Assembly (NCBI RefSeq): GCF_000019965.1
Contig: NC_010571.1
Span: forward strand, 5,279,001-5,343,000
DNA length: 64,000 nucleotides
DNA from: Opitutus terrae PB90-1
Lineage (GTDB): Bacteria; Verrucomicrobiota; Verrucomicrobiia; Opitutales; Opitutaceae
Reading direction: 5' to 3'
Shown: positions 1,507 through 54,540 of the stretch, piece after piece
Numbering within the stretch: position 1 is the stretch's first letter
How the letters are laid out: each line of letters begins with the position of its first letter
Translations under genes and position numbers: made by a program
Notes under the pieces: model-generated
What the model saw: only the letters and a program-made list of their open reading frames with translations
What the model was told of the DNA's origin: nothing
Databases searched by the model: none

Positions 1507-3825
1507 ATGACCGACCAGAAAATCACGATCGAGTACAACGACAAGGTCGTCCGCCAGTTCCTCTGGGCCACGCTCATCTGGGGCGCCGTGGGCATGCTCG
1601 TCGGCGTGCTCGTCGCCTCCCAGCTCAACTTCTGGCAGCTCAACTTCAACCTGCCGTGGCTGACCTTCGGCCGTCTCCGGCCGCTGCATACAAACGCGGT
1701 GATCTTCGCGTTCGTCGGCAACATGATGTTCGCCGGCATCTACTATTCGACGCAGCGGCTGGTGAAGGCGCGGCTCGCGAGCAATTTTCTCTCGGCGCTG
1801 CATTTCTGGGGCTGGCAGGCGATCATCGTCGGCGCGGCGATCACGCTGCCGCTCGGTTTCAGCCGCGGCAAGGAGTACGCCGAACTCGTCTGGCCGCTGA
1901 ACATCGCGGTCGCGTTCATCTGGGTCGTCTTCGCGGTGAATTTCTTCTGGACGCTCGCGCGCCGGCACGAGCGCGCGCTCTACGTGGCGATTTGGTTCTA
2001 CATCGCGACGATCATCACCGTGGCGATGCTTTACATCGTCAACCACCTCTCGATTCCCACCAGCCTGCTGCACAGCTATCCGGTGTTCGGCGGCGTGCAG
2101 GATGCGCTGGTGCAATGGTGGTACGGCCACAACGCCGTGGCGTTCTTCCTCACCACGCCGATCCTCGGCATCATGTACTACTATCTGCCGAAGGCGGCGG
2201 AGCGACCGGTGTACAGCTACCGGCTGTCGGTGGTGCATTTCTGGTCGTTGGTCTTCATCTACATCTGGGCCGGTCCCCACCACCTGCTCCACACCGCGCT
2301 GCCCGGCTGGCTGCAGAACCTCGGCATGACGTTCTCGCTCATGCTCTGGGCGCCATCGTGGGGCGGCATGCTCAACGGCCTGCTCACGCTGCGCGGCGCG
2401 TGGCACAAGCTCCGCACCGATCCGGTGCTCAAGTTCTTCGCCGCCGGCGTGACGTTCTACGGCATGGCGACGTTCGAGGGGCCTCTCCTGTCGATCAAGG
2501 CCGTAAACGCGCTCGGCCATTACACCGACTGGATCATCGGCCACGTCCACGGCGGCACGCTCGGGTGGAACGGCTTCATGGCCGCCGGCATGGTTTACTG
2601 GCTGCTGCCCCGGCTCTGGAACAAGCCGCTCTATTCGACCGCGCTCGCCAACTTGCACTTCTGGTTGGGGCTCGTCGGCATCCTCCTCTACATCGGCGCG
2701 ATGTGGACGAGCGGCATCACGCAGGGGCTGATGCTCAACGCCACGACCGAAGGCGGCACCGTGCTCGCCTATCCCTACTTTATCGACACGATCAACACCA
2801 TCCGGCTGATGATGCTGATGCGCGTGATCGGCGGCGTGCTTTACCTCTCCAGCTGGGGCATCCTCGCCTACGTCTTCATACGCACCGTGCGCGGCGCCCA
2901 ACCCGTCAACGGCACCATCGAGGTCTTTGCCGAACCGAGCACCGCCGACGAGCGGCTCGGGGTCCGTGGCACGTTCTTCAGCGCGCCAACCCTCTTCACG
3001 GTCCTCGGCGTGGGCTTCGCCACGATGTGGATGCTCGGCACCGATTTCGTCAGCGTTCTCGGGCTGATCGGCGCGCTGGTCTGCTTCGTCGCGGGCTACG
3101 CGCTCTTCACCGCGCGCGGCAAGTCCTGGGCCGCCTGGTACGAACGGCTGCTGCTAAATGCCCTGCCGTTCACCGTGCTCACCTTCCTCGCGGTCGCCGC
3201 CGGCGGCGCGATCCAGATCGTGCCGACCGTTCTGGTCGAGAAGGCCCAGAACGTCGAAGATCGCATTCAGGTCGTCTACACGCCGCTCGAGCTCGCCGGC
3301 CGCGACATCTACGTACGCGAGGGCTGCTACACCTGCCACTCGCAGATGGTCCGGACGCTGGTGCCCGACGTGCTTCGCTACGGCGACTACTCGCGGTTGG
3401 GTGAATCGATTTACGATCATCCCTACCAGTGGGGCTCGAAGCGCACCGGTCCCGATCTGGCGCGCGAAGGCGGCAAGTATCCGAATATCTGGCATATACG
3501 CCACATGGCGGATCCGCGCTCGATCTCGGCCGGTTCCATCATGCCCAACTATCCGTGGCTGCTGGAGAACAACACGGACGTCGCCGTGCTGCCTGCGAAG
3601 ATTCGCGTGCAGCAGCTGCTCGGCGTGCCGTTCCCCGAACGCAGCGCGCAGCAGATCTTCGATGCGGTGAAGGAACAGTCCACCGCGATGTCGCAAGAGC
3701 TGCGCGCGGCCGGCGCCTACGTTGCGCCCGAGAAGGAGATCATCGCGCTCACGGCCTATCTCCAGACGCTCGGCCGCTCGCAGAAGGTTGAGAAGCTTTC
3801 CGCCGCGGCCTCCGGCACGCACTGA
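1507..3825 (+). CDS. ccoNO: Fused cbb3 cytochrome c oxidase subunits I and II (CcoN-CcoO)
   Basis: 772 residues. The first roughly 480 residues are CcoN, the haem-copper catalytic subunit, with about a dozen membrane helices. Histidine ligands are visible in LHTNAV (H61), WWYGHNAV, the GPHHLLH pair and HVHGGTLGWNG. The C-terminal part is CcoO: after further membrane segments comes a single haem c site CYTCH at residues 607-611 and conserved GPDLAREGGKYP and IMPNYPWL motifs. Separate genes encode these subunits in proteobacteria; the fusion is known in Bacteroidota and Verrucomicrobiota. The enzyme reduces O2 at the cytoplasmic membrane with high affinity and pumps protons. First large gene of a collinear cco run. 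Confidence 0.95.
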   Translation: MTDQKITIEYNDKVVRQFLWATLIWGAVGMLVGVLVASQLNFWQLNFNLPWLTFGRLRPLHTNAVIFAFVGNMMFAGIYYSTQRLVKARLASNFLSALHFWGWQAIIVGAAITLPLGFSRGKEYAELVWPLNIAVAFIWVVFAVNFFWTLARRHERALYVAIWFYIATIITVAMLYIVNHLSIPTSLLHSYPVFGGVQDALVQWWYGHNAVAFFLTTPILGIMYYYLPKAAERPVYSYRLSVVHFWSLVFIYIWAGPHHLLHTALPGWLQNLGMTFSLMLWAPSWGGMLNGLLTLRGAWHKLRTDPVLKFFAAGVTFYGMATFEGPLLSIKAVNALGHYTDWIIGHVHGGTLGWNGFMAAGMVYWLLPRLWNKPLYSTALANLHFWLGLVGILLYIGAMWTSGITQGLMLNATTEGGTVLAYPYFIDTINTIRLMMLMRVIGGVLYLSSWGILAYVFIRTVRGAQPVNGTIEVFAEPSTADERLGVRGTFFSAPTLFTVLGVGFATMWMLGTDFVSVLGLIGALVCFVAGYALFTARGKSWAAWYERLLLNALPFTVLTFLAVAAGGAIQIVPTVLVEKAQNVEDRIQVVYTPLELAGRDIYVREGCYTCHSQMVRTLVPDVLRYGDYSRLGESIYDHPYQWGSKRTGPDLAREGGKYPNIWHIRHMADPRSISAGSIMPNYPWLLENNTDVAVLPAKIRVQQLLGVPFPERSAQQIFDAVKEQSTAMSQELRAAGAYVAPEKEIIALTAYLQTLGRSQKVEKLSAAASGTH

Positions 3826-3866
3826 CCCCGCTCTCAGCTCTGGACGCTCAGCTCTGGACTTCCTCC

Positions 3867-4082
3867 ATGTTCAAACGCCTCCCGCTCGAAGAACACACCA
3901 CCGCCTGCCTGACGATCGCGTTCGTGACCGCGGTGACGATCTTCTTCGGCTTCGCGTGGCGCGCACTCCGCATGAGCCGCGCGCAGGTCGACCGGTTCGC
4001 CCAGCTGCCGTTCGCTCCGGAAACCAGCGACCAACCGGCCGCACCGGATCCCGCCGCCAACCCAACCACGCCTCGCACCTAA
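3867..4082 (+). CDS. ccoQ: cbb3 oxidase small subunit CcoQ-like
   Basis: 71 residues with one membrane helix (about residues 11-31) and a proline/alanine-rich hydrophilic tail. Sequence alone is weak evidence. Its size, topology and position between ccoNO and ccoP match CcoQ/FixQ, which stabilises the oxidase complex. The start codon ATG at 3867 is the only reasonable one. Confidence 0.6.
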   Translation: MFKRLPLEEHTTACLTIAFVTAVTIFFGFAWRALRMSRAQVDRFAQLPFAPETSDQPAAPDPAANPTTPRT

Positions 4083-4092
4083 TTTCTTCCCC

Positions 4093-4683
4093 ATGTCCCA
4101 GACTCAACCACCGCCCTCTTCCCCTCCCCACGAGGATCAGGTCCGCGACCACACGTTCGACGGCATCCAGGAATACGACAAGCGCCTGCCCAATTGGTGG
4201 CTCGCGACCTTCTACGGTGCGATGGTGTTTTGGGTCGGCTTCTGGTTCTACTACGAACGCGCTCATCTCGGCCCCAGCAATGCGGAGCGACTCGAACAGC
4301 AGATGGCCGTGATCGAAGCCGCAAGACTCGCCGCCGCACCCGCACTCGATGATGCGAGCCTCTGGAAAATGAGTCGTAACGCCGTCTTCATCGACGCCGG
4401 TCGCGCGACCTTCGCGTCCACCTGCGCCAGCTGTCACTCCGCCAAGCTGACCGGCGGCATCGGGCCCAACCTCGTCGACCAGCTTTGGATTCACGGCGGC
4501 AAGCCCAGCGAGGTTTATCAAACCATCACCGACGGCGTGCTCGTGAAAGGCATGCCCGCCTGGGGTCCGGTGCTCGGCACGAAGAAAGTCTCCGAGCTCG
4601 CCGCGTTCATCCTGAGCCATCACCAGGAAAACGAGCCGATCGAGAAACAGGAGGCGTGGATTCCCATCGCTCCCGCGTCGTGA
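4093..4683 (+). CDS. ccoP: cbb3 oxidase cytochrome c subunit CcoP, single haem
   Basis: 196 residues. The N-terminal half carries the typical CcoP segment HTFDGIQEYDKRLPNWW followed by one membrane helix (about 37-54). The periplasmic domain has one haem c site, CASCH at residues 111-115, then GGIGPNLVDQLW and GMPAWGPVL, the latter carrying the axial methionine. Classical CcoP is about 300 residues with two CXXCH motifs; the first cytochrome domain is missing here, with no trace of a frameshift. It feeds electrons to the CcoNO core. ATG lies 10 bp after the ccoQ stop. Confidence 0.9.
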   Translation: MSQTQPPPSSPPHEDQVRDHTFDGIQEYDKRLPNWWLATFYGAMVFWVGFWFYYERAHLGPSNAERLEQQMAVIEAARLAAAPALDDASLWKMSRNAVFIDAGRATFASTCASCHSAKLTGGIGPNLVDQLWIHGGKPSEVYQTITDGVLVKGMPAWGPVLGTKKVSELAAFILSHHQENEPIEKQEAWIPIAPAS

Positions 4684-4715
4684 GATGATTGCCCCGCAAT
4701 TGCGCCCGCCGTCAG

Positions 4716-4779
4716 GTGGCGCCCGGCGTCCCTGCCGGGCGGTTCGTGATCGGGGTGGCCCCGGGCGTCCCTGCCGGGC
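4716..4779 (+). repeat. Tandem pair of GGCGTCCCTGCCGGGC repeats
   Basis: Two 25-bp copies (4716-4740 and 4755-4779) of a GTGGCNCCGGGCGTCCCTGCC-type repeat lie in the ccoP-ccoG gap. A diverged copy with the core GGCGTCCCCGCCGG lies after ccoG near 6396-6412. Each copy has short dyad symmetry (GCCCGGC / GCCGGGC). They belong to the dispersed intergenic repeats of this genome. Confidence 0.6.
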
Positions 4780-4853
4780 TGCGCGATGCGCCAACGCACT
4801 CGTGCCTGCCGGGCACGGCCAGCTCCACCTCGGCGACTGATCGCCGCGTCGTC

Positions 4854-6380
4854 ATGTCCGCCACCCTTCCCCCGCATCCGCCAAGCGCGCGCTCTCCGGT
4901 TCCGTCGCTGGACTCCGTCACCACGATCCGCGCCGACGGCTCGCGTCCGTTTCTGTATCCGAGCGACAGCCACGGCCGCTTCACCACGGCCCGGCGCTGG
5001 TCGGCCTATCTGCTGATCGCGGTCTACCTCGCGCTGCCATGGATTCCAGTCAACGGTTACCCGGCCGTTTTCCTGGATATCGCCGAGCGTCGCTTCCATC
5101 TGTTCGGCGTCACGCTCGCGGCGCAGGACCTGTGGCTGCTGTTCTTCCTGATCACGGGCGTGGGGTTCGCGTTGATCTTCGTCACGGCGCTGCTGGGCCG
5201 AGTCTGGTGCGGTTGGGCGTGCCCGCACACCGTCTTCCTCGATCACGTGTACCGATGGATCGAACGCTGGATCGACGGCGACGCGCCGCAACGTCGTGCG
5301 CTCGCCGCGGCCCCGGTAGGTTTCAAGAAACTCGTCAAGCGCATCACCAAACACGCGCTCTACTTCCTCGTCTCCGCGGTCATCGCCCACCTGTTTCTCG
5401 CCTACTTCGTTTCGATTCCGGAAGTATGGTCGATGGTCCGCGCGGATCCGTTGCAGCATTGGGGTGCGTTCGTCTTCATGATGGTCGCGACGGGCACGCT
5501 GCACTTCAACTTCGCCTGGTTCCGCGAACAGCTCTGCATCGTGCTCTGTCCGTATGGCCGCATGCAGTCGGCCATGATCGACGACCACACCCTCGTGATC
5601 GGCTACGACTGGATGCGGGGCGAGCCGCGTGGCAAACGCCACGCGCCCACGCACGCAGTCGCCGCGCAATTCCGCGCGCCCGCGCTCACGGAGGGCTTGC
5701 CGCCTGGTCCGTCCACCACCCCGGGCGATTGTGTGGACTGCTTCCGCTGCGTGCACGTCTGCCCGACCGGCATCGACATCCGCCAAGGGCTGCAGCTCGA
5801 GTGCATCGGCTGCACCGCCTGCATTGACGCGTGCGACGACGTCATGACCCGGCTGCACCGGCCCAAGGGGCTCATCCGCTACGCCTCACAAAACGCGTTT
5901 TCCGGCAAACCGACCCGCTGGTTCCGCCCGCGCACGATCCTCTACGCCGTCCTGCTGGCCATCGGCGCTGGCGTCGCCGGCACCGCCCTCTCCACGGTTC
6001 GGCCCGCGAATCTCAGCGTCACGCGCATCACGGGCGCGCCCTACATCGTGGACGTCGCCAGCGTCCGCAATCAGTTCTTCGTCCGGCTGGTCAACAAGCG
6101 CAACGAGCCCGTCGCACTGCAGCTCCAAATCACCGACGTCCCTGCCGGCGTGCGGCAGAATGGTTTCACGGCACCGATCGAGATCCAGCCGCTCGGGGAA
6201 ATCGTCCAGCCGCTCGTGCTCCAGCAGCCACGGCATGACTACACCGGACCGTTCCATTTCGCGATTCAGGTCCGTGACGCGCGCAACACGTTCACGCTTT
6301 CCCGGGCTCTGGAGTTCCTCGGCCCCGAGGCCCGGCTTCTGCGTGAAGAAGAAGCGGAGGCCGCCCGTGGGACCAAGTAG
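4854..6380 (+). CDS. ccoG: cbb3 oxidase accessory ferredoxin CcoG (RdxA/FixG family)
   Basis: 508 residues from the ATG at 4854. A longer frame back to 4689 runs through the repeat pair and is unlikely. Membrane helices flank NapH-like CGWACPHTVFLDH and CIVLCPYGRMQS motifs. Two [4Fe-4S] sites follow: CVDCFRCVHVCPTGID and CIGCTACIDACD. A C-terminal FixG immunoglobulin-like domain covers roughly the last 120 residues. CcoG reduces Cu(II) to Cu(I) for the copper path into cbb3 oxidase. It follows ccoP, as is usual. Confidence 0.93.
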   Translation: MSATLPPHPPSARSPVPSLDSVTTIRADGSRPFLYPSDSHGRFTTARRWSAYLLIAVYLALPWIPVNGYPAVFLDIAERRFHLFGVTLAAQDLWLLFFLITGVGFALIFVTALLGRVWCGWACPHTVFLDHVYRWIERWIDGDAPQRRALAAAPVGFKKLVKRITKHALYFLVSAVIAHLFLAYFVSIPEVWSMVRADPLQHWGAFVFMMVATGTLHFNFAWFREQLCIVLCPYGRMQSAMIDDHTLVIGYDWMRGEPRGKRHAPTHAVAAQFRAPALTEGLPPGPSTTPGDCVDCFRCVHVCPTGIDIRQGLQLECIGCTACIDACDDVMTRLHRPKGLIRYASQNAFSGKPTRWFRPRTILYAVLLAIGAGVAGTALSTVRPANLSVTRITGAPYIVDVASVRNQFFVRLVNKRNEPVALQLQITDVPAGVRQNGFTAPIEIQPLGEIVQPLVLQQPRHDYTGPFHFAIQVRDARNTFTLSRALEFLGPEARLLREEEAEAARGTK

Positions 6381-47487: not shown

Positions 47488-49431
47488 GTGAATCTGCTCT
47501 CTGCCCTGATCCTTGGTCCCGTCGTCGTCGGTCTGTTGCTGGCCGGCGTCCGGTCTGATCGTGTGCGCGGCCTGATCGTGGTCGCCGCCGCCGCCCTCGC
47601 AACCGCCGGCACCCTCCTCGTGGTCGTCAGCGGTCCGCGCGGCCCGGTCGGCAGCGCGGTGTTCGCCGGCCCTGGCGCACACGGTCTGATGCTCGGGCTC
47701 GAGATCGCGATGGGGCTTTACATTCTCGCCGTCGGCGTGCGGGGCCGGCAGCCGTGGGTCGTCGGACTGATGCTCGCGCAGGCGGTGGTGATGGGTTGGA
47801 GCGAATGGACCATGCCGTCCGGGCCCGTGGGATCCGCGCCGCTGTTCGTCGATGAATTCGCGCTGATCCTTGCGCTGATCAACGCGGTCGTCGGCGGGGG
47901 CATCTGCCTCTATGCGCTCGGTTACATGCGCGGCTATCACGGTTCGTCGCACGCCGACGTGCCCGATCGCCGGCCACGTTTCTTCGCGCTGCTGCTGGTG
48001 TTCATGGGCGCGATGTTCGGGATCGTGTTCGCGAACAGCCTGCCGTGGCTCTTCTTCTTCTGGGAAATCACCACGCTGTGCTCGTACCTGCTGATTGGTT
48101 ACACCGGCACCGCGGAGGCGCGGCGCAATGCGTTCCGCGCGCTGGCGATGAACCTGGCGGGCGGCGTGGCTTTCGCGCTGGCGATTGCGTTCGCCGCGCA
48201 CCAAGCCGGCACCGTCGAGTTGCAGGCGCTGCTGCGCCAGAGCCCCGCCGTGGCGCTGCTGCCGGCCGCGCTGCTGTGCTTCGCCGGGATCACGAAATCC
48301 GCCCAGCTGCCGTTCTCGTCGTGGCTGCTCGGCGCGATGGTCGCGCCGACGCCGGTGTCCGCCCTGCTGCACTCCAGTACGATGGTGAAGGCCGGCGTGT
48401 ACTTGATCCTGCGGATGGCGCCGGTCGTCGCCGGCACGACCGCGGGGCTGATGGTGGCGCTCGTGGGGGCGTTCACGTTCCTCGTCGGCTCGCTTGCCGC
48501 GATCACGACCAGCGACGCCAAGAAGGTGCTCGCCTACTCCACGGTCGCCAACCTCGGGTTGATCGTCCTGTGCGGCGGCATCGGCACCTACGCCGCGGTC
48601 TGGGCCGGCGTGCTGCTGATCATCTTCCACGCCATCGCGAAATGCCTGCTGTTCCTCTGCGTCGGCCTCGTCGAGCACCGCATGCACAGCCGCGACATCG
48701 AGGCGATGTCCGGATTGATCCTCAATATGCCGCGCGTCGCGATCATGATGCTGATCGGCATGGCGGGCATGTTTCTCGCGCCGTTCGGCATGCTGATCAG
48801 CAAGTGGGCCGTGCTGAAGGCCGTGGTCGACGCTTATCCGCCGCTCTCGGTCTTCATCTGCTTCGGCAGCGCCGCGACGCTGTTCTTCTGGGTGAAATGG
48901 ATGGGCAAGCTGATCGAGGTCGTCACGCCGCGGGAAACCGTCGGACATGAATTCGCGCCGGGCGAAGCGATCGCGTTGTACGGTTTGTCCGCGGCCACGT
49001 TCCTCACCTGCCTGTTCTTCCCGCTCATCTCGTCGGCCGCGATCGAACCCTACGTGCGCAGCGTCTTCGGCCAGAGCGCGTCGATGGCTCCGGGCAACGT
49101 CGTGATCATGATGATCATGATGGTGATGATCATGCTGTTTCCGCTGAGCTTCATCAACTATGGCCGCGGCGTGAAGGTCATGGACGCGTATCTTGGCGGC
49201 GCGAACGTCCAGAGCAGTGTCCGTTTCATGGGCGCGGGCCGCGAAGTGCAGGCGGTGACGATGCACAACTACTACCTGCGCGAGTTCTTCAGCGAAAAGG
49301 GACTCACGCGCGCCGGCGTTCTCGCCAGCGCCCTGGTGCTCGCGGTCCTGCTGCTCGCACCCGCGTTCACGCGGTCCGCCCCTGCCTCCGCCGCCGTGCC
49401 CGCGCCGCTCACTTCGCTGCCGTCCCGTTGA
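47488..49431 (+). CDS. echA: Ech-type hydrogenase proton-pumping subunit EchA (NuoL/MrpA-like)
   Basis: 647 residues from a GTG at 47488. About 16 membrane helices of the proton-translocating antiporter family. Conserved residues are visible: Glu in FFFWEITTLCSYLLIGYTG, Lys in AGITKSAQLPFSSWLLGAMVAPTPVSALLHSS and Lys in TMVKAGVYLILR. It forms the ion-translocating arm of a group 4 hydrogenase. First gene of a six-gene run with gaps of 2-17 bp, so one operon. A mtnA gene lies divergent upstream; no promoter could be picked out in the 226-bp gap. Confidence 0.92.
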   Translation: MNLLSALILGPVVVGLLLAGVRSDRVRGLIVVAAAALATAGTLLVVVSGPRGPVGSAVFAGPGAHGLMLGLEIAMGLYILAVGVRGRQPWVVGLMLAQAVVMGWSEWTMPSGPVGSAPLFVDEFALILALINAVVGGGICLYALGYMRGYHGSSHADVPDRRPRFFALLLVFMGAMFGIVFANSLPWLFFFWEITTLCSYLLIGYTGTAEARRNAFRALAMNLAGGVAFALAIAFAAHQAGTVELQALLRQSPAVALLPAALLCFAGITKSAQLPFSSWLLGAMVAPTPVSALLHSSTMVKAGVYLILRMAPVVAGTTAGLMVALVGAFTFLVGSLAAITTSDAKKVLAYSTVANLGLIVLCGGIGTYAAVWAGVLLIIFHAIAKCLLFLCVGLVEHRMHSRDIEAMSGLILNMPRVAIMMLIGMAGMFLAPFGMLISKWAVLKAVVDAYPPLSVFICFGSAATLFFWVKWMGKLIEVVTPRETVGHEFAPGEAIALYGLSAATFLTCLFFPLISSAAIEPYVRSVFGQSASMAPGNVVIMMIMMVMIMLFPLSFINYGRGVKVMDAYLGGANVQSSVRFMGAGREVQAVTMHNYYLREFFSEKGLTRAGVLASALVLAVLLLAPAFTRSAPASAAVPAPLTSLPSR

Positions 49432-49434
49432 GTC

Positions 49435-50358
49435 ATGGAACCTTGGATTCGCCTCGTCCTCTACCTCGTCGCCGCTCCGGTGGTGGGTGGATTGCTGACC
49501 GGGCTCGACCGGCGGATCTCGGCGCGCATGCAATCACGGCAAGGGCCGCCGCTCGCGCAGCCGTTCTACGACGTGATGAAACTCTGGCGGAAGGAGCGCA
49601 TCGTCGTCCGCAAGTCCCAGAATTTCTTCATCCTGTTTTTCCTGCTCCTGGTCATCTTCACGGGCGCGCTGTTCTTCGCCGGCTCGGATTTGTTGCTGAC
49701 GATTTTCGCGCTGACGCTGGCCGCGATCTTCTTCGTGCTCGGCGCCTACAAGGTGAGTTCGCCGTACAGCTTCGTCGGCGCGCAGCGCGAGCTGATCCAG
49801 ATGATGGCCTACGAGCCGATGGTGCTGCTGACCGCGATCGGCATGTATATGGTCGCGGGCAGCTTTTACGTTCACGAGATCGCCCGGCATCCGACGTTGC
49901 TCGTCACGACGCTGCCGGGCGTGTTCGCCGGCTTCCTCTTCGCGCTCGAGATCAAGTTCCGGAAATCGCCATTCGATCTGTCCTCCTCGCACCACGCGCA
50001 CCAGGAGCTCGTGCGCGGGATCACCACTGAGTTTTCCGGCCGCGCGCTCGCGCTGATCGAGATCGCGCACTGGTATGAGAACGTCTTTCTGCTCGGTTGG
50101 GTGTATCTGTTCTTCGCCGCGATTCCGGCAGTCGGCGTCGCCGTCGCGTTCGCCGTTTTCGGCTTCGTGATCCTGGTCGACAACGTCTTTGCCCGGCTGA
50201 AGTGGCAGACCGCCCTGCGCAGCGCGTGGATCGCAGCGTTCGTGCTCGGGTTTGGCAACATTCTCGTTCTCTCGCTGCTTCCGCCCAAGCCCGCCGAGCA
50301 CCCCAGCCCCGCGCCCGCGGCCCTCGTCACGACCGCACCGGTCCCCGCCTCCCGCTAA
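49435..50358 (+). CDS. echB: Ech-type hydrogenase membrane anchor EchB (NuoH/HyfC-like)
   Basis: 307 residues, eight or so membrane helices. Family motifs RMQSRQGPPLAQPFYDVMKLWRKERIV (the NuoH-like amphipathic loop), KVSSPYSFVGAQRELIQMMAYEP and LEIKFRKSPFDLSSSHHAHQELVRGITTEFSG. This subunit docks the soluble hydrogenase arm to the membrane and links it to proton translocation. It starts three bases after echA; its C-terminus is Pro/Ala-rich. Confidence 0.93.
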   Translation: MEPWIRLVLYLVAAPVVGGLLTGLDRRISARMQSRQGPPLAQPFYDVMKLWRKERIVVRKSQNFFILFFLLLVIFTGALFFAGSDLLLTIFALTLAAIFFVLGAYKVSSPYSFVGAQRELIQMMAYEPMVLLTAIGMYMVAGSFYVHEIARHPTLLVTTLPGVFAGFLFALEIKFRKSPFDLSSSHHAHQELVRGITTEFSGRALALIEIAHWYENVFLLGWVYLFFAAIPAVGVAVAFAVFGFVILVDNVFARLKWQTALRSAWIAAFVLGFGNILVLSLLPPKPAEHPSPAPAALVTTAPVPASR

Positions 50359-50363
50359 ACGCC

Positions 50364-51380
50364 ATGCTCGGCCTGCGAAAATCTCCGTGGATCATCCACT
50401 ATGACGCCTCGAGTTGCAATGGCTGCGACATCGAGACGCTCGCCTGCCTGACGCCGCTCTACGACGTGGAGCGACTCGGCGTGATCAACACCGGCAATCC
50501 GAAGCACGCCGACATCTTCCTGGTGACCGGCGCCGTCAACGAGCAGAGCAAGGAAGTCATCCGTAACATCTACCACCAGCTGCCCGAGCCGAAGGTCGTG
50601 GTCGCGATCGGCGTCTGCGCGTCGAGCGGCGGGATTTTCCGCGATTGCTACAACATCGCCGGCGGCGTCGATCGCGTCATACCGGTCGATGTTTACGTGC
50701 CCGGCTGCGCCGCGCGGCCCGAGGCGATCATCGACGGCGTGGTGCAGGCGCTCGGCGTGTTGGAGCGCAAGCAGAGCGAGATGAGCGCGCTCGCGAACTG
50801 CATCGATCGGATTCTCTACCTGCGGGCGACGAAGGCGGACGCCGCCGAAATCCTCGTGCTGCAAAAGATCGCCTATCAAACGGAGATCGAGCTCTACGGC
50901 GACGACAGCCTGCCGCCGATGCAGCAAACCCTCGAGGAGCTGGAGCACGATTTCGAGCACGTGCCGGTGAACGCGCCGTCGCTGCTGCCGGCCGACCGCG
51001 ACCTCGCCGCGGCGCCCGCCGCACCCGCTCGGATCGTTTTCCTGAAGGCGGTAATCAACGGGAAAATCATCGGCTCGATCCGCGGTTATCAGCTCGGCGA
51101 CACCGCTTATCTCAGCCGGATGATCGTGCATCCGTACTTCCGTCGCCGCGGTGTCGGCCGGCGGTTGCTGCCGGAGATCGAGAAGGCGTTCCCCACGGCG
51201 CGCCGGTTCGAGGCGAACACCGGCCATCAGAGCAAGCGCAACCACTACCAGCTCACGCAACTGGGCTACCGGCAGTTCAAGACCGAGCCGCTCACGCCCA
51301 CGATCACGCTCGTGTACTTCGAAAAACTGCGGCCGGCCGGGACCAGCGGCTCTCGTCCGCCCATCCTCGTCTCCAGCTAG
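50364..51380 (+). CDS. echC: Ech small subunit EchC (NuoB-like) fused to a GNAT acetyltransferase domain
   Basis: 338 residues. Residues 1-140 are a complete hydrogenase small subunit/NuoB domain with the proximal [4Fe-4S] ligands: SSCNGCD (C18, C21), GVCASSGG (C85) and PGCAARPEAI (C115). Residues about 146-325 are a second, complete domain of the GNAT acetyltransferase fold: LRATKADAAEILVLQKIAY, VFLKAVINGKIIGSIRGY and the acetyl-CoA loop IVHPYFRRRGVGRRLL, ending LGYRQFKTE. EchC homologues stop after the first domain. The GNAT part may modify the complex, another protein or a small molecule; there is no direct evidence. In frame throughout with no internal stop. Confidence 0.93.
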   Translation: MLGLRKSPWIIHYDASSCNGCDIETLACLTPLYDVERLGVINTGNPKHADIFLVTGAVNEQSKEVIRNIYHQLPEPKVVVAIGVCASSGGIFRDCYNIAGGVDRVIPVDVYVPGCAARPEAIIDGVVQALGVLERKQSEMSALANCIDRILYLRATKADAAEILVLQKIAYQTEIELYGDDSLPPMQQTLEELEHDFEHVPVNAPSLLPADRDLAAAPAAPARIVFLKAVINGKIIGSIRGYQLGDTAYLSRMIVHPYFRRRGVGRRLLPEIEKAFPTARRFEANTGHQSKRNHYQLTQLGYRQFKTEPLTPTITLVYFEKLRPAGTSGSRPPILVSS

Positions 51381-51388
51381 CCCGCGCC

Positions 51389-51844
51389 ATGGCGAACCAA
51401 TCCTACCAAGCGATCGAAATTGGCGAGTTGCTCGTCGCCGTGACGAAGTTCAAGGACGACGGCTGGCGGCTCGTGCAGATCGGCGCAACGCGGCTCGCGG
51501 AACACGTCGAGCTGACCTACAGCTTCGATCGCGCGCTGGAGCTGAAGAATCTGCGGCTGCTCGTACCGGCGCCGGGCGCGCGCGTGCCGAGCGTGAGCGC
51601 CGTGTTCTGGTGCGCGTTTCTCTACGAAAACGAGCTGCACGATTTGTTTGGCGTCGAGGTGGACGGCATGGCCGTCGATTTCCACGGCGCGTTCTACAAG
51701 ACCGCGGTGCCCTTCCCGTTCGGCGCCGCGCCGAAGGTGAAGCCGCCGAGCGCGGCGAGACCCGCCGCACCTTCTGCCGCTGCACCCGCGGCACCCGCCG
51801 CCAAACCGGAGCCGCCCGGCCCGCATCCGAGCGCGTCCACCTGA
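51389..51844 (+). CDS. echD: Ech-type hydrogenase subunit EchD (NuoC-like)
   Basis: 151 residues from ATG 51389. The first 105 residues resemble the NuoC/EchD fold: DDGWRLVQIGATRLAEHVELTYSFD, then VSAVFWCAFLYENELHDLFGVEVDGMAVDF, including the ExELHDLFG motif typical of the family. The C-terminal 40 residues are a Pro/Ala/Lys-rich tail. It supports the small/large subunit interface. Eight-base gap from echC and 17 bases to echE. Confidence 0.9.
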   Translation: MANQSYQAIEIGELLVAVTKFKDDGWRLVQIGATRLAEHVELTYSFDRALELKNLRLLVPAPGARVPSVSAVFWCAFLYENELHDLFGVEVDGMAVDFHGAFYKTAVPFPFGAAPKVKPPSAARPAAPSAAAPAAPAAKPEPPGPHPSAST

Positions 51845-51861: not shown

Positions 51862-52938
51862 ATGGCCCGCACGATCATTCCTTTCGGTCCGCAACATCCC
51901 GTGCTCCCCGAGCCGGTGCACCTGGATCTCGTGGTGGAAGACGAGCGGGTCGTGGAAGCGCGGCCGTCGATCGGATTCATCCATCGCGGGCTCGAACGCC
52001 TCGTCGAAAAAAAGGACTTCGTCGAGTTTGTGTACGTCGCCGAGCGGATCTGCGGAATCTGCAGCTTCATCCACGGCCAGACCTACTGCCAGGGCATCGA
52101 GGAGATCATGCGTATCGCCGTGCCGCCGCGCGCCCGTTACCTACGCACGATCTGGGGCGAGTTCTCGCGGCTGCACAGCCATCTGCTCTGGCTCGGGCTC
52201 ATGGCGGATGCGATCGGGTTCGAGAACCTGTTCATGCATTCGTGGCGCGTGCGCGAGCAGGTGCTGAAGATCATCGAAGCCACGACCGGCGGCCGCGTGA
52301 TCTTCGGCGTGTGCAAGATCGGCGGCGTCCGTCGCGACATCCCCGCCGACGCCATTCCCGGCATCCTCGACGAACTCACCGCGATCGAGGCGGGCATGCG
52401 CCGGCTCGCGGACACGTTTCTCCGCGACCGCTCGGTACAGGATCGGTTGCGCGGCGTCGGCGTGCTCTCGCGCGATGACGCGCACGCGCTCGGCTGCGTC
52501 GGACCGACCCTGCGCGCGAGCGGCGTCGCGCAGGATATGCGCCATCTCGGCTATGCCGCGTTCGGCGAACTGCCCGTCGAGCCGGTCACGCGGCTCGACG
52601 GGGACTCCTACGCGCGCTGTGCCGTGCGTTGCGAGGAGTTGTTCCAGTCGGTCGACCTGATCCGGCGCGCCTTCGCCGCGCTCCCCGCCGGCGAGATCGC
52701 GGTCAAGGTCACGGGCAATCCCAGCGGCGAATTCATCGCTCGCACCGAACAACCGCGCGGCGAAGTCGTCTATCACCTCAAGGCGGATGGCAGCCGAAAC
52801 CTGCAGCGGTTCCGCGTGCGCACGCCCACCTTCGCGAACTTGCCCGCGATGGTGAAACTCCTCCCAGGCTGCGAACTCGCCGATGTGCCGGTCCTCGTGC
52901 TGACCATCGACCCCTGCATCAGCTGCACGGAGCGTTGA
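51862..52938 (+). CDS. echE: Ech-type [NiFe] hydrogenase large subunit EchE
   Basis: 358 residues. Both nickel-binding motifs of a true hydrogenase are present: RICGICSFIH (C64, C67) and DPCISCTER (C352, C355), so this is not merely a complex I NuoD. The protein ends three residues after the last cysteine. There is no C-terminal peptide to be cut by a maturation protease, a state known for some Ech/CooH-type enzymes. It would make H2 from reduced ferredoxin or oxidise H2 at the cytoplasmic face. Hyp maturation genes are not in the window. Confidence 0.95.
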   Translation: MARTIIPFGPQHPVLPEPVHLDLVVEDERVVEARPSIGFIHRGLERLVEKKDFVEFVYVAERICGICSFIHGQTYCQGIEEIMRIAVPPRARYLRTIWGEFSRLHSHLLWLGLMADAIGFENLFMHSWRVREQVLKIIEATTGGRVIFGVCKIGGVRRDIPADAIPGILDELTAIEAGMRRLADTFLRDRSVQDRLRGVGVLSRDDAHALGCVGPTLRASGVAQDMRHLGYAAFGELPVEPVTRLDGDSYARCAVRCEELFQSVDLIRRAFAALPAGEIAVKVTGNPSGEFIARTEQPRGEVVYHLKADGSRNLQRFRVRTPTFANLPAMVKLLPGCELADVPVLVLTIDPCISCTER

Positions 52939-52939
52939 T

Positions 52940-53278
52940 ATGAGCTACTTTCGCTTTACTCGTATGGCATTGCAGTGGGCCGTCTCGAAGCCGGTCACCT
53001 GCCGGTATCCGTTCGAACCGCGCGTGCCGGTGCCCGGCTCCCGCGGCCAGCTCGAGTTCGATCCGACGGCCTGTACCTACTGCACGGTCTGCGCAAAAAA
53101 GTGCCCCACGCGCGCGATTGTGGTGAAACGCGCGGCGAAGCACTGGACGATCGACCGGCTGCTTTGCATCAGCTGTGGCTACTGCGTGGAATCCTGCCCG
53201 AAGCACTGCCTCGAGCTCACGACCGACCACGGCACGCCCGCGCTGACGAAAGACCGCGAATATCACGCCGCCCCGTAG
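52940..53278 (+). CDS. echF: Ech-type hydrogenase ferredoxin subunit EchF
   Basis: 112 residues starting one base after the echE stop. Two [4Fe-4S] motifs: C45, C48, C51, C55 in CTYCTVCAKKCP and C76, C79, C82, C86 in CISCGYCVESCP. It is NuoI-like and passes electrons between ferredoxin and the EchC cluster. Last gene of the operon. Confidence 0.93.
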   Translation: MSYFRFTRMALQWAVSKPVTCRYPFEPRVPVPGSRGQLEFDPTACTYCTVCAKKCPTRAIVVKRAAKHWTIDRLLCISCGYCVESCPKHCLELTTDHGTPALTKDREYHAAP

Positions 53279-53397: not shown

Positions 53398-54540
53398 GTG
53401 AGCAAAAATCCGACCGTTTCCCGCTGGTGGCGCGGCGGCCTCGCCGCGGTGGGTTTGATTGTTGTTCTCCCATCAGGCCGGGGCGCGGATTACCCCCTCG
53501 CGCCCGCCCCGAGCGCTCCCGCCGCCGAGCCCGCGGTCGCATATGTGCCGCCCGAAAATCCCTCGGAACTGCTGCGGCTGGACGAACCGATGCGCCGCTA
53601 TTTCCGCGCCCGGCTCTCGCGCCACGCCTCGGGTTACGACCGGTTGTGCGCGCTCGTGGATTCGATCATCCAGCCCGATGGGCTGGCCTTTGCCTACGAC
53701 GGGAACGGGACGTATGACGCGCGGGAGACGTTCCGCCGGCGCCGCGGCAATTGCGCCAGCTTCGCCTTCCTCGTTGTGGCCGTCGCGCGCGAGTTCGACA
53801 TCGACGCGTCGTTTCAAAACGTCGAGCGCGCGACGCGTTGGAACCGTGTCGGCGACATGGTCGTCGCCGTACTGCACCTCGACGTGAAGGTGAGCAGCCA
53901 GGGCCGCAACTACATCATCGACCTCGAGCCAGGGCTGATTCCGCCGCGCGACTCCTCCGATGTGCGCTTGATCCGCGATGAGCGCGCGTTCGCCCAATTC
54001 TACTGCAACATCGGCTTCGACGAGTTGGTGCGCGGCGATGCGGACCGCGCGCTGCATTACATGGCGCGGGCGACCGAGATTGATCCGAGCTGCGCCACGG
54101 CGTGGGCCAACCGGGCGACGCTGCTAAGCCGGCTGGGCGATCTCGCGACCGCCAGAAAGTGCTTCGAACGCTCGCTGCGGGCCGATTCGCGGGGGGAAGC
54201 CGCGCTGGACGGGTTCGTCAGCCTGTTGCGCCAGCTCGGCACACCCGCAGATCTGCAGCAGGCCGACAAGCTGGAGCGCCGGGCGCGCGCCATCCGTGAA
54301 CGCAACCCCTATTACCAGCAGCAGCTCGCAGCGCAGGCGCAAGAGCAGGGCGACCTCGCCCGCGCCGAAAAGCACCTGCGGCGTGCGATTTCGCTCAAGG
54401 ATGACGAGCCTGAATTTTATGCGCAGCGGCTCGCGGTGCTGGAGCAGCTCGGGCGCAGCGACGACGCCCGCCGCGTCGCCCGTCAGCTCGAAAATGTGCG
54501 CACCCGTCTCATGAACATGCCCGAGCAAATCGTTCCCTGA
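53398..54540 (+). CDS. Transglutaminase-like protein with TPR repeats
   Basis: 380 residues from GTG 53398. N-terminal signal/anchor (LAAVGLIVVLPSGRGA). Residues about 75-190 resemble a transglutaminase-like core: RRRRGNCASFAFLVVAVAREFDIDASF holds the Cys of the usual catalytic position. The C-terminal half has tetratricopeptide repeats (YCNIGFDELVRGDADRALHYMARATEIDPSCATAWANRATLLSRLGDLATARKCFERSL and more). Such proteins act in the envelope, possibly as proteases or scaffolds. About 120 bp after the Ech operon, but with its own candidate promoter. Confidence 0.8.
   Translation: MSKNPTVSRWWRGGLAAVGLIVVLPSGRGADYPLAPAPSAPAAEPAVAYVPPENPSELLRLDEPMRRYFRARLSRHASGYDRLCALVDSIIQPDGLAFAYDGNGTYDARETFRRRRGNCASFAFLVVAVAREFDIDASFQNVERATRWNRVGDMVVAVLHLDVKVSSQGRNYIIDLEPGLIPPRDSSDVRLIRDERAFAQFYCNIGFDELVRGDADRALHYMARATEIDPSCATAWANRATLLSRLGDLATARKCFERSLRADSRGEAALDGFVSLLRQLGTPADLQQADKLERRARAIRERNPYYQQQLAAQAQEQGDLARAEKHLRRAISLKDDEPEFYAQRLAVLEQLGRSDDARRVARQLENVRTRLMNMPEQIVP

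Follow-up and report, generated by a model that had tools for sequence, protein, structure and literature searches.

The analysed DNA stretch (the window) comprises 64,000 nucleotides of the Opitutus terrae PB90-1 genome, which is assembled as a single contig of 5,957,605 bases. The window contains a complete echABCDEF operon on the forward strand, and the third gene of the operon (positions 50364–51380) encodes a fusion of an Ech hydrogenase small subunit and a GNAT domain (echC-GNAT). Upstream of the fusion gene, echA (47488–49431, putative start; PF00361) and echB (49435–50358; PF00146) encode an antiporter-like and a NuoH-like membrane subunit, respectively. The downstream genes encode a NuoC-like subunit with an Ala/Pro-rich tail (echD, 51389–51844; PF00329), a NuoD-like large subunit with CGIC and DPCISC motifs (echE, 51862–52938; PF00346 and PF00374) and a ferredoxin-like subunit with two [4Fe-4S] motifs (echF, 52940–53278; PF00037), all on the forward strand. 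The gene that follows echF (53398–54540) encodes a transglutaminase-like and TPR protein according to Pfam.

Translation of positions 50364–51380 yields an open frame of 338 codons that is terminated by a TAG stop codon, bearing out the single unbroken frame that an earlier note on this DNA had described. The frame, the Pfam matches and the alignment together define a 338-residue protein with two domains. PF01058 (Oxidored_q6) matches residues 18–128 (E 2e-30) and PF00583 (Acetyltransf_1) matches residues 219–284 (E 8.5e-10), both above the Pfam cut-offs, and these matches confirm the identity proposed in the earlier note, an Ech small subunit joined to a GNAT. The EchC/NuoB-like [4Fe-4S] domain spans residues 1–139 (50364–50780), as assigned from PF01058 and a match to MbhJ (6cfw_J). 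The four cluster cysteines that had been placed in this domain are located at C18, C21, C85 and C115 and are invariant in a 31-row alignment of the fused proteins. In the AlphaFold2 model (mean pLDDT 83.7, pTM 0.77), the EchC and GNAT domains are joined via one helix, predicted for residues 119–144 (50718–50795), which leads from EchC into the junction.

The GNAT-fold domain extends over about residues 149–323 (50808–51332), as judged from Pfam and a structure match to 3f0a (Z 19.7, rmsd 2.6, 153 residues aligned), and the predicted GNAT fold of the window protein is complete. The alignment reveals an Ala/Pro-rich insert within the domain (about residues 200–222; 50961–51029), and an insert is found at this position in 6 of the 31 fused proteins. 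The CoA pyrophosphate loop is recognized by alignment and motif as RRRGVG at residues 260–265 (51141–51158), the acetyl-CoA loop named in the earlier note. In the alignment, Leu297 (51252–51254) stands where the general-acid tyrosine is usually found. Translation from Met140, within the frame, was weighed as an alternative and rejected: inspection by eye finds no good ribosome site ahead of Met140, and the methionine is absent from several fused proteins (L052, L059 and L066).

The window operon specifies a [NiFe] hydrogenase, not complex I, because EchE contains a nickel-binding CxxC motif at both ends (CGIC and DPCISC) and the genome encodes HypD (G000:C1:5798824-5799864, E 8.7e-150). The best solved relative of the EchC domain is MbhJ (6cfw_J, E 1e-45); the match to formate hydrogenlyase subunit 7 gives 2.6e-38 and those to complex I homologues 2.1e-29 or weaker. 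Taken together, the operon, the CxxC motifs, the four cysteines and HypD identify the enzyme, at the sequence level, as an Ech-type group 4 [NiFe] hydrogenase. The window protein and its operon resemble EchC of group 4 Ech and MbhJ (6cfw) in the four cluster cysteines, the operon order and a large subunit with both CxxC motifs. The six Ech genes lie on one strand in one order at 26 of the 31 fused loci, and the remaining five loci stop at a contig edge. CGIC is present at all 29 fused loci where EchE was found and DPCISC at 27 of them; in the remaining two, the gene is truncated close to the end of its contig. Seven genes adjoining fused operons were scanned and encode HypA, two CobW/HypB/UreG family proteins, two Fer4_20/Pyr_redox_2 flavin oxidoreductases and two HypC-radical SAM fusions. 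These assignments are in keeping with a hydrogenase function, and none in this small sample of seven points to acetyl-CoA.

Contigs from a collection of 84,980 species were scanned and the best 80 loci were taken, so the totals are lower bounds. The match extends into the GNAT domain at 31 loci and stops at query residue 137–162 at 49. The at least 31 fused loci, nearly all from metagenome bins, include Verrucomicrobiota (16), Omnitrophota (4), Phycisphaerales (2), Spirochaetes (2), Fibrobacterota (2) and Lentisphaerae (1). A stop codon is reached within the contig after 299–334 residues at 30 of the 31, and L078 runs off its contig; the 31 fused proteins referred to throughout are therefore the window protein and those of the 30 complete loci, with L078 excluded from the GNAT counts. 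Oxidored_q6 and three GNAT Pfam models match every one of the 31 fused proteins at E<=0.001. A search for both domains in one gene, which the earlier note had proposed, thus finds them in at least 31 further loci, and the EchC-GNAT fusion is confirmed as real. The possibility that an assembly or sequencing error joined two genes, for instance by removing a stop/start pair near 50790–50810, is negligible and was discarded, because the genome is in one contig and the same fusion occurs in at least 31 other loci, and nothing was found in its favour.

The fusion occurs beyond the window genome in scattered bacteria of several phyla and is a minority form among the sampled Ech-like operons. Within the order, 372 genomes include four with a match to the EchC half (E<=1e-35), and examination of the frames assigns the window genome and G326 as fused and G009 and G220 as unfused. 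The G326 fusion protein is identical to that of L054, a Lacunisphaera bin. At the phylum level, the fusion profile finds 42 of 387 genomes at E<=1e-60, and the match covers the GNAT domain in six of them, the window genome included. Among 117 genomes from the phylum of an Omnitrophota bin (G725), 39 match at E<=1e-40 and two are fused, G725 included. None of the 48 unfused loci that could be read (of 49; L117 was not parsed) encodes a GNAT domain, which upholds the earlier statement that EchC/NuoB proteins normally end after the first domain. The window protein differs from these unfused small subunits in the added GNAT domain; the unfused proteins end at 142–170 residues, except in three Clostridia. 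The three clostridial proteins (L097, L101 and L125) carry long acidic C-terminal tails (204–243 residues in total) with no GNAT match.

Eighteen separate GNAT proteins related to the fused domain were collected, 14 with a profile of the fused sequences, two with a fused GNAT query and two with the whole window protein; seven of the 18 come from one genus. These N-acetyltransferases (from Priestia, Aneurinibacillus and others) belong to the same subfamily as the fused GNAT, and the products of two plasmid genes share 46.6% and 41.1% identity with the L053 domain. They differ from the fused domains in that the general-acid tyrosine is kept in all 18 and in that no Ech gene was found in the stretches examined around them. 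Annotation or tblastn of 2–10 kb around the separate GNAT genes of G450, G735, G733, G808, G807, G809 and the two plasmids detects no other Ech subunit, and the one tblastn hit around that of G407 is weak and of ferredoxin type. The probable ancestral arrangement, in which a free-standing GNAT gene neighbours Ech, was thus not found near the relatives examined. The fusion is the only family match at E<=1e-15 in 20 of 21 fused genomes, and G733 has a second copy. Two of the separate relatives show additional features. The 316-residue protein of L191 (1462–2412; G807) combines a relative of the fused GNAT in its first half with a second half that looks GNAT-like by eye. The relative in L161 (G450, about 3400–5319) adjoins what by eye resembles a long CRISPR-type repeat array.

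The ancestry of the fused operons was traced with two EchB + EchE trees, which leave out the fused gene and in which the unfused rows were hand-thinned to 27 and 24 of 51. L065 and L078 are absent from both trees as they have no EchE, and the 24-unfused tree also omits L044, L084 and L081 (long or uncertain rows). The fusion state requires two changes in the first tree (30 fused versus 27 unfused), compared with a mean of 19.2 for shuffled labels, and two versus 18.0 in the second, which was built by a more careful method and in which well-supported branches force two changes. The fused rows form one side in none of 200 bootstrap replicates of the second tree because the unfused G009 operon falls among them. 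A tree that keeps the fused operons together is nevertheless not rejected (AU p 0.32). In a tree of the GNAT domains, the fused proteins and the 18 separate relatives are also separated by two changes; the fused domains form one side in 42% of bootstraps, and a single clade of fused domains is not rejected (p 0.46). The simplest history consistent with these trees would be a single fusion that then spread by vertical descent and by transfer and was lost in G009. The EchC tail of G009 equals that of the window protein in length up to a common Asp-Arg-Ile and then ends, which is only suggestive as a trace of GNAT loss. The two Phycisphaerales fused rows fall in the verrucomicrobial group of the EchB + EchE tree and may be misbinned or transferred.

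The sequence of the GNAT half bears the marks of purifying selection. The 40 listed pairs are the ones in which GNAT dS is smallest. In every one, dN/dS of the GNAT half is below 1 (0.036–0.073 in three close pairs and 0.395 for the window versus L048), and that of EchC is lower than that of GNAT. The loop glycines (GxG/A) are retained in 30 of the 31 fused proteins, L056 being without its glycine; the conservation of acetyl-CoA-binding residues in homologues that the earlier note had suggested examining is thus borne out for these positions. The full [QR]xxGx[GA] loop is present in 25 of 31 fused proteins versus 18 of 18 separate relatives and is altered in L051, L056, L067, L071, L074 and L077. 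Residues of the α1-α2 helices are also highly conserved in the fused set (L053 numbering: Q188 in 31/31, Y178 in 30/31 and E174 in 28/31).

The alignment column that we take to be that of the catalytic tyrosine was assigned from the general GNAT motif, not from a ligand-bound structure. A tyrosine occupies this column in 13 of 31 fused proteins (L069, with a gap here, was scored as lacking it) versus 18 of 18 separate relatives, and its state changes five times on the GNAT tree. The motif asparagine does not separate the two groups, its frequency being 22 of 31 in the fused set and 11 of 18 among the separate relatives. Both residues are kept in 11 of the 31 fused proteins; in the window protein the asparagine (Asn293) is present and the tyrosine column holds Leu297. 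A tyrosine on the helix after the loop is reported often to be the general acid in GNATs, and 62% of characterized GNATs are reported to use it (PMC4964394). Loss of the tyrosine is no proof of inactivity because not all GNATs use a tyrosine acid (PMC4964394). Nonetheless, catalysis by the GNAT domain of the window protein is doubtful given the leucine at the usual general-acid position, and some fused GNATs that have the tyrosine, or both residues, may be enzymes.

Pyruvate:ferredoxin oxidoreductase yields reduced ferredoxin and acetyl-CoA together, and acetyl-CoA would thus be a sensible read-out of the fuel of Ech. A CoA site that is mostly kept, acceptor helices that are kept and a catalytic acid that is repeatedly lost point to a ligand-binding regulator more than to an enzyme, at any rate in the branch of the window protein. 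We propose, with a probability of roughly 0.4, that the GNAT domain is an acyl-CoA-binding regulatory module analogous to PanZ. The echC-GNAT product would then serve for electron transfer, as the small subunit of an Ech hydrogenase that is driven by ferredoxin and pumps ions, and would bear the GNAT domain on its own C-terminal helix. The domain would mainly bind acetyl-CoA or CoA and regulate the hydrogenase as PanZ does PanD. Ligand binding would reshape the phosphate loop and alter the contacts with the hydrogenase, and the altered contacts would match the oxidation of ferredoxin and the release of H2 to the acetyl-CoA status; we infer the binding, the allostery and its direction. The coupling of acetyl-CoA to hydrogenase activity raised in the earlier note is plausible and is retained as the best model. 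The more specific picture, an Ech lineage with a metabolite sensor in a core subunit, in which bound acetyl-CoA or CoA gates ferredoxin-driven H2 formation and proton pumping such that H2 output tracks the acetyl-CoA that is formed in the very step that reduces ferredoxin, is a tentative one that may well prove wrong.

PanZ (PanM) offers a precedent for the regulatory use of a GNAT fold proposed here. PanZ is reported to bind CoA and acetyl-CoA equally well and thereby to control PanD, which is not its acetylation substrate, although the authors do not exclude that PanZ acetylates something else (PMC4410942). Unlike the fused domain, PanZ is a separate protein with another partner. The PanZ model PF12568 scores 26.7 bits against the window protein (cut-off 22) and matches 9 of the 31 fused proteins at E<=0.001; Acetyltransf_1 scores higher on the window protein, and the NCBIfam model matur_PanM reaches 27, below its cut-off of 68.

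A PanZ-like domain is favoured over an acetyltransferase that acts on its own complex in the manner of RibT, which we regard as unlikely while still the strongest of the alternatives. Such an enzyme would place acetyl groups on lysines of Ech subunits, or of a protein that docks to them (ferredoxin, for example), and change assembly or activity. RibT (5xxr) ranks among the top matches of known structure for the GNAT profile (E 2e-9). It is likewise an operon-encoded GNAT dedicated to a single enzyme complex and, within that complex, is reported to acetylate K29 of RibH (PMC9048828). The 11 fused proteins with both Asn and Tyr would suit catalysis. RibT differs from the fused domain in being a separate protein, reported as catalytic (PMC9048828), that serves a soluble capsid. 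Against a RibT-like role, the window protein has leucine for the tyrosine and 18 of 31 fused proteins lack it. The lysines of the EchD tail, moreover, are not enriched: the median is 2 in 29 fused operons, the window not being among them, and 3 in 50 unfused operons. The tails were delimited with an approximate motif, which runs too far in several rows, and they are not conserved. Acetylation of a Lys/Pro-rich EchD tail, which the earlier note had suggested, is thus unsupported and was dropped.

Slightly less probable is a small-molecule acetyltransferase that merely shares the gene; here the fusion would ensure that a fermentative enzyme is co-expressed or held at the membrane. The occurrence of the relatives as GNAT genes in unrelated contexts, the conserved acceptor-side helices and the near absence of other family members from the fused genomes are all compatible with this explanation. 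The erosion of the tyrosine in the fused set argues against it, as does the lack of an evident reason why every fused lineage should have such an enzyme as part of a core subunit for electron transfer. An old fusion kept as a structural or near-neutral passenger, because the C-terminal part stabilizes the complex or is harmless, is improbable. The faster evolution of GNAT than EchC in all 40 pairs listed, the decay of loop and tyrosine in some members and the G009 operon, which is nested among fused operons and has no GNAT domain, would agree with a passenger, but dN/dS below 1 throughout, the persistence of the loop glycines and the retention of the domain over several phyla do not.

The PanZ-like reading would matter in two respects, provided that turnover is under the control of the bound ligand. 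A range of anaerobes, most of them uncultured, would have their fermentative H2 release coupled directly to acetyl-CoA, and the fusion would provide a single-gene handle on the regulation of an energy-converting hydrogenase. The fusion also marks a recognizable lineage of Ech operons across several phyla. We know of no acyl-CoA-binding domain in a core subunit of complex I-like enzymes. Among the matches listed from the open-licence literature, no description of an EchC-GNAT fusion was found; a table of genes near [NiFe]-hydrogenase and succinate dehydrogenase includes a GNAT family (PMC12727194), and the passages retrieved from a study that describes Ech in Margulisbacteria do not name GNAT (PMC6349859). 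Both domains are known, and their union and its implication appear undescribed as far as the open-licence literature shows.

A second fusion gene lies downstream of 8 of the 31 fused operons. The gene, of about 430 codons, joins HypC, a [NiFe] maturation domain, to a HydE-like radical SAM domain of the [FeFe] maturation type. No such gene was detected at the unfused loci by tblastn at E<=1e-20, where the flanks are short. The carriers are L062 (9342–10655), L057, L058, L060, L064, L070, L075 and L076, and in the three proteins scanned, the best model is HydE, with 217–242 bits versus a cut-off of 254.6.
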